Assembly (NCBI RefSeq): GCF_000169195.2 | Contig: NC_016023.1 | Location: 434,001-498,000, forward strand | DNA length: 64,000 nt | Reading direction: 5' to 3' | Origin: Heyndrickxia coagulans 36D1 | GTDB lineage: Bacteria; Bacillota; Bacilli; Bacillales; Bacillaceae_C | Shown here: positions 10,737-61,758 of the stretch, in pieces | How the letters are laid out: each line of letters starts with the position of its first letter | Position numbering within the stretch: position 1 is the first letter of the stretch | Program-made: the position numbers and the translations under genes | Notes under the pieces: generated by a model | Told to the model about the DNA's origin: nothing | Database searches by the model: none | The model's input: the letters and a program-made list of their open reading frames with translations, nothing else

Positions 10737-10808
10737 CGCCCTCGGCAGGAATCGAACCCACATTTTGAGAACCGGAATCTCACGTGCTATCCTTTGCACC
10801 ACGAGGGC
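10737..10808 (-). tRNA. tRNA-Arg (anticodon CCG)
   Basis: The minus strand folds into a full cloverleaf: acceptor GCCCTCG/CGAGGGC (7 bp), D stem GTGC/GCAC, anticodon stem TGAGA/TCTCA around the loop TTCCGGT, and a T arm with loop TTCGATT. The anticodon CCG reads the arginine codon CGG. The discriminator base is G and the CCA end is not encoded. The T stem contains two G-U type pairs. It stands alone, not in a tRNA cluster, and has its own terminator. Confidence 0.93.
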
Positions 10809-17465: not shown

Positions 17466-17804
17466 CCAATCGTGAAAATCGCATGGGTGAGGACAAGTCC
17501 GTGGCTCCTGAACTTTGATTTGTCTTTCACCGGGCAGATGAAGGACAAATGGCTGGCAGCTGCGCTTTGTTTTGTCTTTCATTATGCCGGTGAAGGACAG
17601 AATACTGGCAGCCATCTTATAAAATGTCTTTCATCGGGGTGATGAAGGACAAATCGATACCCGTCATACCTTGTTTTGTCTTTCATCGCATCGATGAGGG
17701 ACAAATGGCAAGCAGTCGCGCTTTGTTTTGTCTTTCATCAAACCGGTGAAGGACAAATAGGCGCCCGCCACCCTTTAAAATGTCTTTCATCTCCCGTATA
17801 AACG
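17466..17804. repeat. Array of 52-bp palindromic units (array 1)
   Basis: Palindromes of the form TTTGTCTTTCATC-N5-7-GATGAAGGACAAA start at 17518, 17570, 17622, 17674 and 17726, with a left-hand degenerate unit near 17466 and a truncated one at 17778. The spacing is exactly 52 bp each time. Stem bases co-vary (for example CACC with GGTG), while the centre varies freely. No reading frame is conserved. It lies downstream of trxB and upstream of the transposase. The same core recurs in the array at 51.3-52.4 kb. Confidence 0.85.
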
Positions 17805-17863
17805 AGCCAGCGCATTTATCAGCCGGAAAAAGCAGCGCAATATCCGCACCGCAATTTTTGCGC

Positions 17864-47959: not shown

Positions 47960-48450
47960 TCCGGTTACGGTTTCTAAAAACGGGCATGGTTGCCGCTTTG
48001 ATTTCCGGATGAATTTCTACTTTGCGAGCAACCTGCTTTGCCCGCTCGGCTGTTTGTGCTTTTACACGGTCTATCCTTTTCAGTTGCGGTTTTGAAAAAA
48101 GAGCATGGTTGCCGCTTGTTTGTCGAACTCATTTTGTTTTCGAACAACCTATTTTACCCGCTCGGCTGCTTGTGCTTTTACTTGGTCTATCCCTTTCAGT
48201 TGCGGTTTTGAAAAACGGGCATGGTTGCCACTTTGATTGCCGAACTCATTTCTGCCTTGCGAGCAACCTATTTTACCCGCTCGGCTGCTTGTGCTTTTAC
48301 ATGGTCTATCCTTTTCAGTTGCGGTTTTGAAAAACGGGCATGGTTGCCGCTTTGATTGCCGAACTCATTTCTGCTTTGCGAGCAACCCGCTCTGCCCGCT
48401 TGGCTGCTTGTGCTTTTACATGGTCTATCCTTTTCAGTTGCGGTTTTCAA
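47960..48450 (-). repeat. Four tandem 116-120-bp repeats, each a terminator-like hairpin, between pstS and pstC
   Basis: Copies of a roughly 119-bp unit are marked by CAGTTGCGG at 48081, 48197, 48316 and 48435, and a diverged unit lies near 47963. In the transcribed (minus) strand each unit folds: GCGGGCA...GGTTGC pairs with GGCAACC...TGCCCGT and runs straight into GTTTTT or CTTTTTT. Hairpins span 48335-48398, 48216-48279, 48101-48163 and 47981-48044. Some stem pairs are conserved through compensating changes (GGGTA, GAGC/GCTC). Reading frames crossing the repeats are by-products. Confidence 0.85.
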
Positions 48451-48573
48451 AAAAGGACAAGACAAGCAGAAATGTGCCGCCGGACGTGCCCCGGATAACC
48501 GGAAACCGTATCGTTCTGGCGATCATTCTGCTGCTTGCATCAGTTCAGAGCTCCGCAAAGTTTTAAATCCACT

Positions 48574-49681: not shown

Positions 49682-51094
49682 TTGAAATCGGTCGTGATCA
49701 TTGGCGGGGGCATTACGGGCCTTACCGCATTGTACGAGCTTCATAAACAGATTGAAAAAACAGGGGCACAGGTATCCTTGGCCCTTGTGGAAGAAAATCC
49801 GGAAGCCGGCGGAAAGCTCCGTACCGTCCGGAAAGAGGGTTTTATTATGGAAACGGGCGCGGATTCGATCGTTGCCCGCAAAAAAGGGGTAGCCGGGTTT
49901 TTGAAAGAACTTGGGCTTGAAAACCGGATCCGCCACAATGCTACCGGCATCTCGTATCTTTACCGGGAAGATGGGTTAAAACCGATTCCGCGAGAGGCAG
50001 TGTTTGGCATTCCGGCAAGTTTGGATGCCCTTTTTGGCAGTGAACTTGTTTCAACGAAAGGGAAACTGACGGCGCTGAAAGATTTGTTTACGAAAAACCA
50101 TTCTTTTACAAAAGACAGTTCAGCCGGAGAATTTTTGGAGGCTTTTTTCGGCAAAGAACTGGTGGAGAAACAAATTGCGCCGGTGCTGTCCGGCGTTTAC
50201 TCCGGCAATTTGTATGAACTGACATTGGCGACAACAATGCCGTTTCTTGTCGATTATAAAAATCGGTATGGCAGCATTATGAAAGGTTTGTCCGAACATA
50301 AGCAAACTTTCTTGTCTCCTGAGAAGAAAAAATTTGTATCGTTTAAAAACGGTTTGTCCGAACTGGCTGACCGCCTTGAGGAAAAGGCAGCGGGCGCTGA
50401 CATCATAAAAGGCGTGAAAGCAGTTGCGCTTGAACGGCACGAAAAAGGCTATACTGTTGTATTGTCGGACGGGCGCAGGCTTAAAGCAGATGTGGTGGTG
50501 CTTGCCGTACCGCATGCTGCAGCGAAGAAACTGCTTGCGAACCCTGCTTTGGATAAGGAATGGGATCAGTTTAAGGCCGCTTCGGTGATCACCGTTTATC
50601 TTGGTTTTGACGTGCCGGATGCAGTCTTGCCGAAAGACGGGACAGGTTTTATTGTTTCTGGCGGAAGTGGGCTCGTTTGCAATGCCTGCACATGGACAAG
50701 CCGGAAATGGCCGCACACGTCGAAAAATGGACGCCTGCTGTTGCGCTTGTTTTATAAAGACGCGGATGCCGCACTGTTTAACCGGCTGAATGCGATGGAT
50801 CAGGAGGGCCTGATTGAAACGGCGCTGAAAGATGTGCGGCAGGCGCTCGGGATAAGTGCACAGCCAGTGGCAGCGGAAGTGACAAAATGGCTGGGCAAGA
50901 TGCCGAAGTACGATTTGCACCACCGTCAGAGGGTAGAAGCGCTAACCAAAAAGCTATCAGCAAGCGACCCGGACGTGGTGCTCGCCGGTTGCTCTTACTA
51001 CGGCGTCGGCATCGCCGATTGCATCGTGAATGGAAAAGAAACGGCGGGAAAGGTAATGGAAAAACTAAGGGAGCAGGGCAGTTTAAATGTGTAA
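49682..51094 (+). CDS. cgoX: Coproporphyrinogen III oxidase (HemY/CgoX)
   Basis: A 470-residue flavoenzyme: FAD motif VVIIGGGITGLTALYEL, GGKLRTVRKEGFIMETGADS, VVLAVPHAAAKKLL and the C-terminal GVGIADCIVNGKETA. In Firmicutes it oxidises coproporphyrinogen III to coproporphyrin III in haem synthesis. Translation starts at TTG after GGAGG. In B. subtilis hemY follows hemE and hemH; here it stands alone between pst and phoPR. A TATAAT (49644-49649) lies upstream without a good -35. Confidence 0.92.
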   Translation: MKSVVIIGGGITGLTALYELHKQIEKTGAQVSLALVEENPEAGGKLRTVRKEGFIMETGADSIVARKKGVAGFLKELGLENRIRHNATGISYLYREDGLKPIPREAVFGIPASLDALFGSELVSTKGKLTALKDLFTKNHSFTKDSSAGEFLEAFFGKELVEKQIAPVLSGVYSGNLYELTLATTMPFLVDYKNRYGSIMKGLSEHKQTFLSPEKKKFVSFKNGLSELADRLEEKAAGADIIKGVKAVALERHEKGYTVVLSDGRRLKADVVVLAVPHAAAKKLLANPALDKEWDQFKAASVITVYLGFDVPDAVLPKDGTGFIVSGGSGLVCNACTWTSRKWPHTSKNGRLLLRLFYKDADAALFNRLNAMDQEGLIETALKDVRQALGISAQPVAAEVTKWLGKMPKYDLHHRQRVEALTKKLSASDPDVVLAGCSYYGVGIADCIVNGKETAGKVMEKLREQGSLNV

Positions 51095-51281: not shown

Positions 51282-52420
51282 TTGACGTCTAATTAGACAA
51301 AACTTACGGAGGTCAGGAGGGTTTGTCTAATTAGAACGCCTAACGGAACAAAGCTTGCGGGGAACGGGAGCTTTTTGTCTAGTTAGACCCGCCAATTGGA
51401 CAAAGCTTGCGCCGGGCGCGGGCCTTTTGTCTAATTGGAACTCCTAACGGGACAGTTCTACCGGAGATGCAGTTCCTGCTCTTTTGTCTTACAATCCAAT
51501 TATGAAAGACATTTCGAATTGCAGCTCGCCCCTTTTGTCCTTCATTCAACTTATGAAGGACATTTCAGCTTGTGGTTCGTCCCCTTTTGTCCTTCATTCC
51601 GCTTATGAAGGACATTTCAGACTGCGGTTTGCATCCTTTTGTCCTTCATTCAACTTATGAAGGACATTTCGGCTTGTGGTTTGCACCCTTTTGTCTTTCA
51701 TCCCGGTTATGAAGGACGTTTCAGACTGCGGTTTGTCCCCTTTTGTCCTTCATCCCGCTTATGAAGGACATTTCAGTTTTTGTATGTTAAGGAAGCTCAA
51801 AAAAAAGACGGCCTTTCTTCACATAGAGCCCATCTACGTGAAGAAAGCGTGGAAAATTGACGGCCTTCCTTTACATAGAGCCCATCTACGTTAAGAAAGC
51901 ACGGAAAAACGTAGACCTTCCTTTACATAGAGCCCGTCTATGTTAAGAAAGCGCGGAAAAACGTAGACCTTCCTTCACATAGAGCGCATCTACGTTAAGA
52001 AAGCGCGGAAAAACGAAGACCTTCCTTCACATAGAGCCCGTCTATGTTAAGAAAGCGTGGAAAAACGAAGGCCTTCCTTTACATAGAGCCCGTCTATGTT
52101 AAGGAAGCGCGAAAAATTGACGGCCTTTCTTTACATAGAGCCCATCTACGTTAAGGAAGCACGGAAAAACGAAGACCTTCCTTCACATAGAGCCCGTCTA
52201 CGTGAAGAAAGCACGGAAAAACGAAGACCTTCCTTTACATAGAGCCCGTCTATGTTAAGAAAGCGCGGAAAATTGACGACCTTCCTTTACATAGAGCCCG
52301 CCTATGCTAAGGAAGTAAGCAAAAACGAGGCGCTTCCTTCACATAGAGCCCGTTTACGTTAAGAAAGCAAACAAAAACGAAGCGCTTCCTTCACATAAAA
52401 CGCGTTTATTATCCGCAAAA
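51282..52420. repeat. Large array of 52-bp palindromic units with three sequence subfamilies (array 2)
   Basis: Three blocks follow one another. Block D (51282-51480): TTTGTCTAATTAG...GGACAAAGC units at 51323, 51375 and 51427. Block B (51482-51790): TTTTGTCCTTCAT-N5-ATGAAGGACATTT units at 51482, 51533, 51585, 51637, 51689 and 51741. Block C (51800-52420): CTTTCTTCACATAGA-GCCCA-TCTACGTGAAGAAAG type units with ACATAGAGC at 51821 and then every 52 bp to 52393 (12 units, no deviation). Each unit has inverted arms of about 13-15 bp. Spacers of about 16 bp are also related. It lies between the convergent ends of cgoX and phoR. The short stretch 51095-51281 shows nothing else. Confidence 0.9.
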
Positions 52421-52439: not shown

Positions 52440-54227
52440 TTAAACAGCGTCCGGCCTGGTTTGCGTCCGCGGCAGAGTGACGATAAAGGTGCTCCCTTTT
52501 CCTTCCTCGCTTTCAACCCGGATTTTACCATGGTATGATTCAACAAGATGCTTAACAATCGCAAGGCCGAGCCCCGTACCGCCGGACTGCCTTGACCGGG
52601 CTTTATCGACCCGGTAAAACCGTTCAAAGATGCGCGGCAAATCCTTTTCGGAAATACCGATGCCTGTATCGCTTACAATCAGGTCCAGCTCATTTTCCCT
52701 TTCGATCAGGCTGATTTCAATCCTGCCTTTATCCGGCGTATAAGCAATCGCGTTCGTTACCAAATTCAACAGGATTTGGCGGAGCCGGTCTTTGTCTGCT
52801 TCCATCATGACGTGCCGCTTTTGTGGCAGCACAAGTTCCAGCTGTTTCTTTTCTATTCTTTTCCGCATCGTTTGGACGGTCTCTGCGACAACATCGACCA
52901 CATTGAGCTGTTCCATTTTCAACAGAATGCGATGCTGCTCGATCCTGGACAAATCGAGAATGTCGGAAATGAGCCGGTGCAGCCGGTCGGACTCGTCATA
53001 GATGATCTTTAAAAATTCCCTGAGTGTCGCTTCATCATACATGGCACCGTCTAGTAACGTTTCCGCAAACCCTTTGACAGAGGTGACAGGCGTTTTCAAT
53101 TCGTGGGAGACATTTGCAACAAACTCGCTGCGGATCTGCTCAAGTCGTCTCGTTTCTGTTACGTCGTGCAGGACCGCCACAACGCCGCGCAGCTCTCCGC
53201 TCTCCCCGACATATGGCGCAATATGGGCATCGAGAATGCGCTCTTTCGGGTAATAAAGATGGACCTCGTCCCGAAACCGTTCACCCGTTTTTAATGAACG
53301 ATCGATCAGCTGGCTGAGCCCGAAACTTTTTCCCGCTTCGATATGGCGCTTTCCAATCAATTCGCCGGACGACAAACCCGTCATTTCTTCCATTGCCCGG
53401 TTCACGAGCATGATCCGCCCCGATGTCTGAATAAGCATGACCCCGCTGTCCATATTTTCCAATACGGCGGTCAGCTGCTGCTCGTTTTCATCAATCTCGT
53501 TCATTTGCTGCTTTAAGTTATGGGCAAGATTATTAATGGCTTTTGTCAGCTGCCGCAATTCCCCGCTTGCATTGACACGGACACGGCTGTCATAATCTTT
53601 TTCAATCAGGCGGTTGCTAACCTCAATGCTCGCTTCAATCGGGCGCGTAAATTTCCGTGCCAGCACATAGCTGATCCAGCCGGAAATGAGGAAGGCCACC
53701 GCCATTGCAAGCCCGAGGCTGAACCACAATCCTTTTAGCACAGCATCAATCCGGTTAAGCGCAATGGAGGTCCGGATGACTGCGATAACTTTCCCATTTT
53801 CTTTTACCGGATTTGCGACATACATCATATTGTACCCGAGCGTATGGCTTGAGCGGATGGACTCACCGCTTGCTTTATGCTGCCTTATAACCTGCCTGAA
53901 TTCCGGTCGGTTTGCGTGATTTTCCATCTTTGCCGGATCATCGTCCGAATCTGCGAGCACTTTCCCGTTTGTATCAATGATGGTAATACGCGGTTCGTGG
54001 TTGGAATAATAATGCCGGACTTTTCCTTGCAGTACATCCGGCTTGTCTTTGAATGTTTGCGGACGGATCGTTTTCATCAGTAGATCTGCATCCTGGGAAA
54101 GCTGCGTGCGCGCCATGTCCATATATGTATGTTGAATCATATCAGCAACGAAAAAACCGATAGCCAGCAATACGGCGGCCAAAATCGATAAAAATGCAAT
54201 AAAAATGCGGATCCATAATTTATTCAT
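52440..54227 (-). CDS. phoR: Phosphate-sensing histidine kinase PhoR
   Basis: A 595-residue membrane kinase: first helix about 7-29, extracytoplasmic sensor domain to about 165, second helix about 168-190, HAMP, PAS (about 255-350), HisKA with the phosphoacceptor in FVANVSHELKTPVTS (near residue 375), and an ATPase domain with DTGIGIS and GGTGLGLAIVKH. Its place after phoP and the pst operon nearby fit PhoR; WalK has a similar layout but lies elsewhere in these genomes. It starts 17 bases after phoP. The C-terminus abuts the repeat array. Confidence 0.9.
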   Translation of the reverse strand: MNKLWIRIFIAFLSILAAVLLAIGFFVADMIQHTYMDMARTQLSQDADLLMKTIRPQTFKDKPDVLQGKVRHYYSNHEPRITIIDTNGKVLADSDDDPAKMENHANRPEFRQVIRQHKASGESIRSSHTLGYNMMYVANPVKENGKVIAVIRTSIALNRIDAVLKGLWFSLGLAMAVAFLISGWISYVLARKFTRPIEASIEVSNRLIEKDYDSRVRVNASGELRQLTKAINNLAHNLKQQMNEIDENEQQLTAVLENMDSGVMLIQTSGRIMLVNRAMEEMTGLSSGELIGKRHIEAGKSFGLSQLIDRSLKTGERFRDEVHLYYPKERILDAHIAPYVGESGELRGVVAVLHDVTETRRLEQIRSEFVANVSHELKTPVTSVKGFAETLLDGAMYDEATLREFLKIIYDESDRLHRLISDILDLSRIEQHRILLKMEQLNVVDVVAETVQTMRKRIEKKQLELVLPQKRHVMMEADKDRLRQILLNLVTNAIAYTPDKGRIEISLIERENELDLIVSDTGIGISEKDLPRIFERFYRVDKARSRQSGGTGLGLAIVKHLVESYHGKIRVESEEGKGSTFIVTLPRTQTRPDAV

Positions 54228-61048: not shown

Positions 61049-61446
61049 CCGAAACACCATCCCCCGCACGTACCTATTTGTAGTATTATTTTAGCAGATT
61101 TTGGCGAAAAGCGCTTCGAAATTCCGGATTTTGTATGTGTCAAGTTTTTCAGCGATAGGGATATGTACCAAGTTTTTCGCGACAGGGGTTTAAAATCGGG
61201 TATTCTAAGACGCTCTTTTTGTACACTTTTGGCTACCGCGCTATGCTTGCTTTCCTGGCTCAGGAGGAAGCTGCCCCGAAGTGACGTAATATTTCTGTAT
61301 AAAGATGGATAACAGGGGTGTTAATGCGCGCGAAATCCACTCGCTTTTCGTGGGCGGCCGGCGAGCCTCCTCGCTCGTGCCTCGCTGCGGGGATGGACTT
61401 CAAAGAGTTCCGGAGGACAGTTCAAAGGGGCATAACTAGACGCGCC
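61049..61446. other. Intergenic stretch upstream of minJ with a GC-rich repeat-like segment
   Basis: No gene is supported. The segment at about 61327-61400 (CTCGCTTTTCGTGGGCGG ... GAGCCTCCTCGCTCG ... CTCGCTGCGGGG) resembles GC-rich dispersed repeats common in intergenic DNA of Bacillus and Geobacillus; recognition is from memory and tentative. Confidence 0.3.
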
Positions 61447-61541
61447 CTATGTGAAGGAAGAGTCTCGTTTTTGCTTGCTTTCTTAACGTAGACGGACTCT
61501 ATGTGAAGAAAGGCCTTCTTTTTCCCGCGCTTCCTTAACAT
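61447..61541. repeat. Short array of 52-bp palindromic units (array 3)
   Basis: CTATGTGAAGGAAG at 61447 and CTATGTGAAGAAAG at 61499 are exactly 52 bp apart. The intervening CTTTCTTAACGTAGACGGACTCTATGTGAAG and a truncated CTTCCTTAACATAG at 61528 match the block C units of array 2. The last unit is cut where the element at 61542 begins. Confidence 0.75.
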
Positions 61542-61758
61542 AGGGCTTGCTAAATAAGTAAAATTCCTAGATTTGGAAAGGATGCTGACAGCTTTGGCAA
61601 AAATTTAAATACAAGGGGATTATAAAAATCCAAAGAAAAGCTTGCACTTGAAAACTGATTCAATGTATAGAAAAGACAGAATCGCATTTTCGAAGTTCTT
61701 CTAGAGCTTACTGACAAAGTGGGGACAAACACAGAAGTGGATTCGTTCAGCAAGCCCT
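61542..61758. mobile_element. 217-bp non-autonomous element with AGGGCTTGCT inverted ends
   Basis: The left end AGGGCTTGCTAAATAAG and the inverted right end AGGGCTTGCTGAACGAAT (61741-61758) share the first ten bases and, partly, the next few. The right end is identical to one arm of the 89-bp element at 17270. The interior is AT-rich without a credible gene. It seems to interrupt a unit of array 3. Confidence 0.55.

Follow-up and report, generated by a model that had tools for sequence, protein, structure and literature searches.

Background

REP and BIME elements are the nearest known kind of repeat to the arrays described here. Conserved monomer length is also familiar from the eukaryotic alpha satellite, in which it is about 171 bp. 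REP/BIME elements have been described as protein sites and IS targets (PMC2817692; PMC1525189), and a GTAG/CGTC tag beside the palindrome is given as a trait of REP/RAYT elements (PMC3733652). Stem-loop repeats of Bacillus include bcr1, and also Bhal-1, Bhal-2, and Bant-1, which measure 72-167 bp and are entered as type I in the tables excerpted from PMC2267715. CRISPR arrays have been reported in Heyndrickxia coagulans (excerpt of PMC8954581). No published description of a 52-bp family was found in the open-licence literature searched, and the excerpts of PMC12306157, PMC2267715, PMC2817692, and PMC8954581 contain none.

The window analyzed in this study is a stretch of 64,000 nucleotides from the genome of Heyndrickxia coagulans 36D1 (contig NC_016023.1, positions 434,001 to 498,000). 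It contains members of a family of 52-bp palindrome arrays whose unit length is strongly kept.

Results

The array at 51282-52420 and its flanking genes

An initial annotation, made from the letters of the window, had described a palindrome array at 51282-52420 with about 21 units in three blocks, which differed in their palindromic cores, shared a 52-bp period, and included 12 consecutive block C units without deviation. This description was borne out by shift identity, by TRF, and by a comparison of palindrome centres with shuffled sequence, and the count was a fair one (3 + 6 + 12). Identity at a shift of 52 was 0.52 in block A, 0.71 in block B, and 0.84 in block C, and the best shift in each block was 52 or 104. 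The blocks, with the TRF results, are listed in Table 1. Consensus alignment was indel-free in block C and contained one 1-bp deletion in block B. Palindrome centres were counted where at least 8 of 10 positions paired, which gave one in block A (51362), six in block B (51498, 51549, 51601, 51653, 51705, and 51757), and ten in block C (51830 and each 52 bp up to 52298, the final C units being below threshold). The total of 17 compares with a mean of 0.7 and a maximum of 4 in 200 mononucleotide shuffles. Blocks B and C are out of phase, their junction measuring 73 bp (6.95 turns at 10.5 bp) and not 52.

The array occupies a convergent gap, in which a protoporphyrinogen oxidase gene on the plus strand faces a PnpS/PhoR-type kinase gene on the minus strand. 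Rfam covariance models gave no match in the array, and the sole match at gathering score in the window was a tRNA at 10737-10808. An unrelated 119-bp tandem repeat of about 4 copies, outside the 52-bp family, lies at 47964-48453 of the window, downstream of a PstS-like gene and ahead of the next reading frame on that strand.

Table 1. Coordinates of array blocks, flanking genes, and further arrays (window positions, except where a locus, L, is named)
Feature	Position	Strand	Details
Block A, T-type variant, about 3 units	51282..51480	.	half-sites TTTGTCTAATTAG / CTAACGGGACAAA, 52-bp spacing; TRF period 52 at 51322-51454, 2.6 copies, 4% indels, block extent about 51282-51454
Block B, T type, 6 units	51481..51776	+	TTTTGTCCTTCAT-7-ATGAAGGACATTT, single 1-bp deviation; TRF period 52 at 51481-51776, 5.7 copies
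Block C, C type, 12 units	51786..52397	+	CTTCCTTCACATAGA-5-TCTATGTTAAGAAAG + spacer of about 17 bp, indels 0; TRF period 52 at 51786-52397, 11.8 copies, 0% indels
Protoporphyrinogen oxidase family gene, left neighbor, directed at array	49682..51094	+	TIGR00562, 255 bits (cut-off 98)
PnpS/PhoR-type histidine kinase gene, right neighbor, directed at array	52440..54227	-	NF046044 PnpS, 525 bits (cut-off 400)
Further T-type 52-bp array, about 6 units	17513..17815	+	TTTTGTCTTTCAT-7-ATGAAGGACAAA
Small C-type array	61437..61545	-	one full and two half palindromes, fused to IS-end-like repeat
Array with other Fredinandcohnia/Neobacillus cores	L137 850-1170
Array with other Fredinandcohnia/Neobacillus cores	L149 4118-4349
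Array with other Fredinandcohnia/Neobacillus cores	L158 390-783
Array with other Fredinandcohnia/Neobacillus cores	L173 6260-6596

The repeat family in the 36D1 genome

A genome search with the array as query returned 100 matches, and 40 of the 92 first-look candidates were scored, so that the genome has at least as many arrays as are counted here. At least 54 merged array sites, nearly all at 52 bp, were found in the sampled parts of the genome, and additional sites lie beyond these 54 (e.g., 137447, 567144, 960965, 1299609, and 1769530). The leading shift was 52 or 104 in 67 of 77 periodic stretches from 262 kb of sequence (52 pieces around matches plus the window).

Each unit is made up of an inverted repeat of 27-35 bp and a spacer that takes up the remainder of the 52 bp. 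Two unit families, T and C, were recognized. The T-type unit consists of TTTTGTC, an inner stem, 7 bases, an inner stem, GACA, and about 20 freer bases, and the C-type unit of CTTYCTTNACNTAGA, 5 bases, the inverse, and a spacer of about 17 bases. The families are unrelated in sequence: homology was rejected because the two consensus units, in their best cyclic register, agreed at 19/52 positions, below the shuffle average of 21.4. The T cores CTTCAT, TTTTG, and TAATTAG are present together in one genome and at times in one array. Exact C-core palindromes numbered 299 in the 36D1 genome, compared with 0 in the backwards control. Spacers are alike within an array, and whole-unit identity inside arrays averaged 0.79; a CRISPR array was rejected because of this resemblance among spacers. 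Neither of the two genes flanking the array at 51282-52420 is a cas gene, although an orphan CRISPR array would have none beside it. The nearest neighbor of a unit lay in a different array for 150 of 371 C units and 32 of 210 T units.

Compensation between loop and spacer length inside units was essentially absent, a single unit having a loop of 6 and a gap of 28. With a half-site finder that was loose and noisy, no shared end points were found among the C arrays, and no fixed insertion unit was therefore recognized. A polar, KOPS-like reading was discarded because array orientations, judged by eye, are mixed along the genome.

A dispersed repeat resembling the end of an IS, an identity that is a guess, adjoins several C-type arrays (GGGCTTGCTGAA... 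/ AAATTCCTAGATTTGGCAAGGATGCTGACAG; 61540-61590 in the window) and also occurs in 36D1 at 305109, 1080549, 1173098, 1805075, 2467446, 2594864, and 3431679. It is sometimes joined at the palindrome centre, as though an insertion element targeted palindromes. In separate observations, no array was found at about 2.81-3.36 Mb of the 36D1 genome, where sampling was incomplete, and the GC skew of sampled pieces suggested an origin near 1.43 Mb and a terminus within 2.8-3.36 Mb, so that the surroundings of the terminus may be poor in arrays.

Placement between genes

Gene calls followed a simple longest-ORF rule, with ORFs inside arrays set aside; some neighboring genes reach into the array ends, the overlap being about 130 bp at most. 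The 54 array sites of 36D1 lie between predicted genes, 23 of them in convergent, 25 in co-directional, and 6 in divergent gaps. The convergent share (23/54) compares with 4 of 30 window gaps of at least 60 bp (Fisher p 0.007), a background that includes the array-holding gaps. For the other genomes, 21 of 63 classifiable arrays were convergent against 30 of 262 other gaps (p 7e-5), 22 of the 85 arrays being unclassifiable. Arrays are thus over-represented between convergent genes.

The locus in close relatives

Heyndrickxia coagulans DSM 1 has the same two genes at this locus, with one truncated T unit between them. A Heyndrickxia congener (G003), with flanks about 75-81% identical, has three consecutive 52-bp units with a different core in the same place, and two further genomes (G004 and G001) have no 52-bp array at this locus. 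Different species have therefore had 52-bp units of differing sequence at this locus. The C array at 988606 in 36D1 is absent from DSM 1, so that in the two cases detailed arrays were gained or lost between close species and neither is essential. The initial annotation had named, as a finding that would refute its reading, an array present in one strain only whose blocks align as one recent slippage product. The first part is close to what was found, since the array is expanded in 36D1 and only a single unit is left in DSM 1, but the second is not, since 52-bp units with another core occur at the locus in a third species of Heyndrickxia.

Orthologous arrays of 36D1 and DSM 1, in a comparison that leaves out the C array at 988606, changed in length by -52, -52, +52, +52, and +54; the remaining differences were small indels, many of them paired with one of opposite sign, and such pairs may in part be alignment artefacts. 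Intergenic DNA of the same two genomes showed indels of many sizes. Differences at aligned sites amounted to 12.6% in arrays and 6.6% in intergenic DNA. The raw indel-to-substitution ratio was not far lower in arrays (0.103) than in intergenic DNA (0.144); the contrast appears only with opposite pairs and whole units set aside, and it therefore concerns net unit length, not event counts.

Distribution among spore formers and conservation of unit length

Matches were found in 10 of 40 relatives, some of which belong to different families of the order. When any period of 37-67 was admitted, a two-unit T pattern was found in 27 of 397 genomes and 16 of 135 genera of the order (backwards control, 0), the other 370 genomes being without it. 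Named genomes contained at least 116 stretches with this pattern, of which 80, from 44 named genomes, were used for the spacing statistics; these 44 include strains of one species (e.g., several Neobacillus niacini) and five genomes with a single classified spacing. The genera among the matches listed included Neobacillus, Peribacillus, Metabacillus, Alkalihalobacillus, Gracilibacillus, Salinibacillus, and Fredinandcohnia, all of which we take to be Bacillaceae in the broad sense; genera are known from the matches listed only, and groups outside Bacillaceae could also carry arrays.

Among the matches listed, the T-pattern spacing was 52 in 378 of 428 cases, 51 in 27, 53 in 16, and another value in 7, with none of the 428 at 37-48. 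The modal spacing of the 44 named genomes, again among the matches listed, was 52 in 38, 51 in 5 (including one tie with 52 that was entered as 51), and 53 in 1. When 36D1 and the fetched relatives were added to the matches listed, 711 of 789 T-type start-to-start spacings were exactly 52. Sequence was kept far less well. In the 39 genomes with usable units among the matches listed, spacer identity was 0.60 within genomes and 0.31 between genomes, compared with 0.26 after shuffling, and spacer columns beyond the flanking ATTTC and GTTTT held 0.02-0.35 bit. Across these genomes unit length was thus far better kept than spacer sequence, and the claim of the initial annotation that length is kept while sequence is not holds well beyond the locus.

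Palindrome cores that are absent elsewhere in the genomes searched occur in the Heyndrickxia genomes with the pitch unchanged. The TTTTG two-unit pattern was found in 36D1 and DSM 1 only, among 32 genomes, which suggests that the TTTTG core spread within Heyndrickxia at the old pitch. Fredinandcohnia and Neobacillus have other palindrome cores (CCTCTTCAT...ATGAAGAGG; GTCCTCAA...TTGAGGAC), spaced at 52 or 53 bp. Units were mostly of 51 bp in Bacillus sp. UNC438 and in Gracilibacillus massiliensis (51 and 50), and mostly of 53 bp in Halalkalibacter (L160, L179, and L126). Such 51- and 53-bp arrays are natural length variants for testing the pitch.

In a rough drift model (star phylogeny, 36D1/DSM 1 rates) 19% of lineages keep the length, compared with the 86% observed (38 of 44, among the matches listed). 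The difference can be read as selection on unit length, in a comparison where lineages are non-independent and unit recombination also preserves whole units. A simple slippage VNTR was rejected because the three blocks differ in sequence and because 52 bp recurs in other genera with unrelated spacers. A phage, plasmid, or mobile origin was likewise rejected, as blastn of the array gave no match in plasmids and phages and the exact T or C pattern had no match in viral contigs.

Helical phase

Five turns at 10.4 bp amount to 52 bp. Spacings of 40-48 occurred once and spacings of 55-64 not at all among the 789 (matches listed, 36D1, and fetched relatives), and a single pair of CTTCAT palindromes 55-85 bp apart, at 70 bp, was found in 29 genomes. 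Spacings near 42 or 63 bp are thus unused, and helix face alone was rejected as the rule. Block junctions were compared in a strict test, in which junctions below 55 bp were excluded, 9 of 20 off-register distances were kept, and the helical period was not preset. These nine junctions lean to whole turns (V-test p 0.009 at 10.5 bp and 0.10 at 10.4; Rayleigh p 0.05 at 10.5 bp and 0.035 at 10.4), a tendency that is suggestive only, with n=9 and a dependence on the assumed period. The proposal that the pitch is 52 bp because five turns place all palindromes on the same face of the helix is thus possible and not established: the junctions agree with it, but the spacings one turn away are not used.

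DNA or RNA

Stem mismatches in the T class comprised 105 G-T and 92 A-C, and those in the C class 235 G-T and 369 A-C, of which 167 were at position 11. At the commonest variable C-class position the arms carry C or T freely (CG 112, CA 111, TG 102, and TA 26). When right arms were shuffled within an array, overall pairing was unchanged (z -1.2 for C and +1.4 for T), although single C stem positions diverged (position 4, z -3.6; position 8, z +2.3, a weak co-variation); units vary little inside arrays, which limits the power of this test. At stem position 4 of the 36D1 C-type units, which is occupied by C or T, the arms are anti-correlated: 138 Watson-Crick pairs were observed against 160.6 expected within arrays, as if perfect palindromes were avoided. 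Between arrays the arms change together and the cores differ symmetrically, which is the expectation for symmetric protein sites or cruciforms. Because G-T is not preferred and the arms show no overall co-variation within arrays, selection on RNA base-pairing is unlikely, and an inverted repeat at the DNA level remains. RNA hairpins were accordingly rejected as the main reading; the putative dimer-type DNA sites of the initial annotation fit the mismatch counts and the independence of the arms better.

Discussion

Our preference, which is tentative and falls somewhat short of even confidence, is for arrays acting as fixed-pitch DNA inverted-repeat sites of a putative symmetric protein, with a nucleoprotein barrier or anchor as the product and turnover by whole units. 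The family comprises intergenic arrays, found here in Bacillaceae-type spore formers, with a monomer that is mostly of 52 bp (sometimes 51 or 53). Every inverted repeat would be a duplex DNA site for a symmetric protein, dimeric or higher, and adjacent proteins would contact one another or wrap at a constant interval of roughly five turns, so that other unit lengths would be selected against. The nucleoprotein stretch, often downstream of genes and more often than expected between convergent ones, could serve as a local barrier or anchor that stops read-through or holds supercoils or chromosome loops. Units would be gained and lost whole, presumably via recombination between repeats, which would explain both the turnover of sequence and the presence or absence of arrays between close species. 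The protein that sets the pitch is one that we infer; the retention of length over sequence, the unrelated C and T units with a common 52 bp, the convergent placement, and the phase of the junctions are in favor of this reading. Against it stand the 51- and 53-bp arrays, the gain or loss of arrays between close species, the unused spacings near 42 and 63 bp, the raw indel ratio, the weak co-variation at one C stem position, and the majority of genomes of the order (370/397) without the two-unit T pattern. The CTTCAT, TTTTG, and TAATTAG cores of one genome also fit poorly with one sequence-specific protein, except if the common TTTGTC ends are all that it recognizes.

The main rival, to which we give appreciable but limited credence, is a selfish or neutral satellite whose palindromic monomers would multiply by unequal recombination, hairpin replication slippage, and gene conversion from one locus to another. 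The 52-bp length would then stem from the way the units are copied or from shared ancestry, and would serve no function in the host. Such copying would suit the differences between close species (the remnant unit in DSM 1 and the missing array at 988606), the gain and loss of whole units, the partial intermixing of units across loci noted above, and the ability of 51- or 53-bp variants to spread through an array. It gives no reason for the rarity of off-length units when the spacer is near saturation between genomes and length is not, nor for unrelated C and T units that both measure 52 bp. Convergent enrichment also speaks against a satellite, though promoter avoidance could explain it.

It is improbable that the arrays are a BIME-like supercoil sink, in which a topoisomerase, DNA gyrase or another, would favor them as sites in convergent gaps and the pitch would reflect wrapped DNA, as the convergent enrichment would allow. 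DNA gyrase is near universal, yet most sampled genomes are without the T pattern. Tandem palindromes near gene ends do resemble BIME-2 arrays, which are reported to bind gyrase, but BIME units alternate in orientation (PMC2817692), whereas the 52-bp units are direct repeats. An RNA-level function, with hairpin arrays as bidirectional terminators or 3' stabilizers of both convergent transcripts, is very unlikely: convergent placement agrees with it, as does the count of terminator-like matches in the region, six where shuffled sequence gave 2.2 (sd 1.6), but G-T is not preferred over A-C, compensatory change within arrays is absent overall, 31 of the 54 array sites in 36D1 lie outside convergent gaps, the fixed 52-bp pitch would have no obvious role, and the array at 51282-52420 matches no Rfam model.

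That length is conserved across genera and sequence is not is a sign of a physical ruler acting on bacterial DNA. With a protein behind the 52-bp pitch, as in the reading preferred here, the arrays would belong to an undescribed architectural system of spore formers with dozens of natural binding platforms; without one, they would be a length-locked bacterial satellite and a model for repeats that keep their length without function.

Membership among the RAYT/REP elements was rejected because the Y1 transposase domain does not follow the arrays. PF01797, a Pfam model that does not split RAYTs from other Y1 transposases, matched in 20 of 22 genomes regardless of arrays; the match in 36D1 is a 40-position fragment with a stop, a genome with nine two-unit T matches (G266) has none, and a genome with no such match (G073) has four. 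BIME-2 and the RAYT-associated REPs are, like the 52-bp arrays, many-copy extragenic palindromes in regular tandem groups. REP/BIME units alternate in orientation, whereas those of the arrays inspected here are direct repeats, and the present family differs further in a 52-bp monomer that is fixed across genera while spacer and cores change. The repeats bcr1, Bhal-1, Bhal-2, and Bant-1 are likewise stem-loop repeats in Bacillus, but the excerpt of PMC2267715 describes no 52-bp tandem period for them and its text does not contain the word tandem. CRISPR arrays share a palindromic repeat and regular spacing with the 52-bp arrays, in which, by contrast, spacers are diverged copies of each other instead of being unique, and repeat and spacer both vary.

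Eukaryotic satellites also keep monomer length as sequence diverges, evolve in concert, and turn over by presence and absence; the 52-bp arrays differ in being bacterial, short, dispersed over dozens of sites, and built of a palindromic monomer. A bacterial counterpart of nucleosome-length satellites is conceivable, if doubtful, in which a putative polymerizing architectural protein would read the five-turn, 52-bp monomer and mark the boundaries of (often convergent) transcription units, leaving sequence free within a ruler of length.
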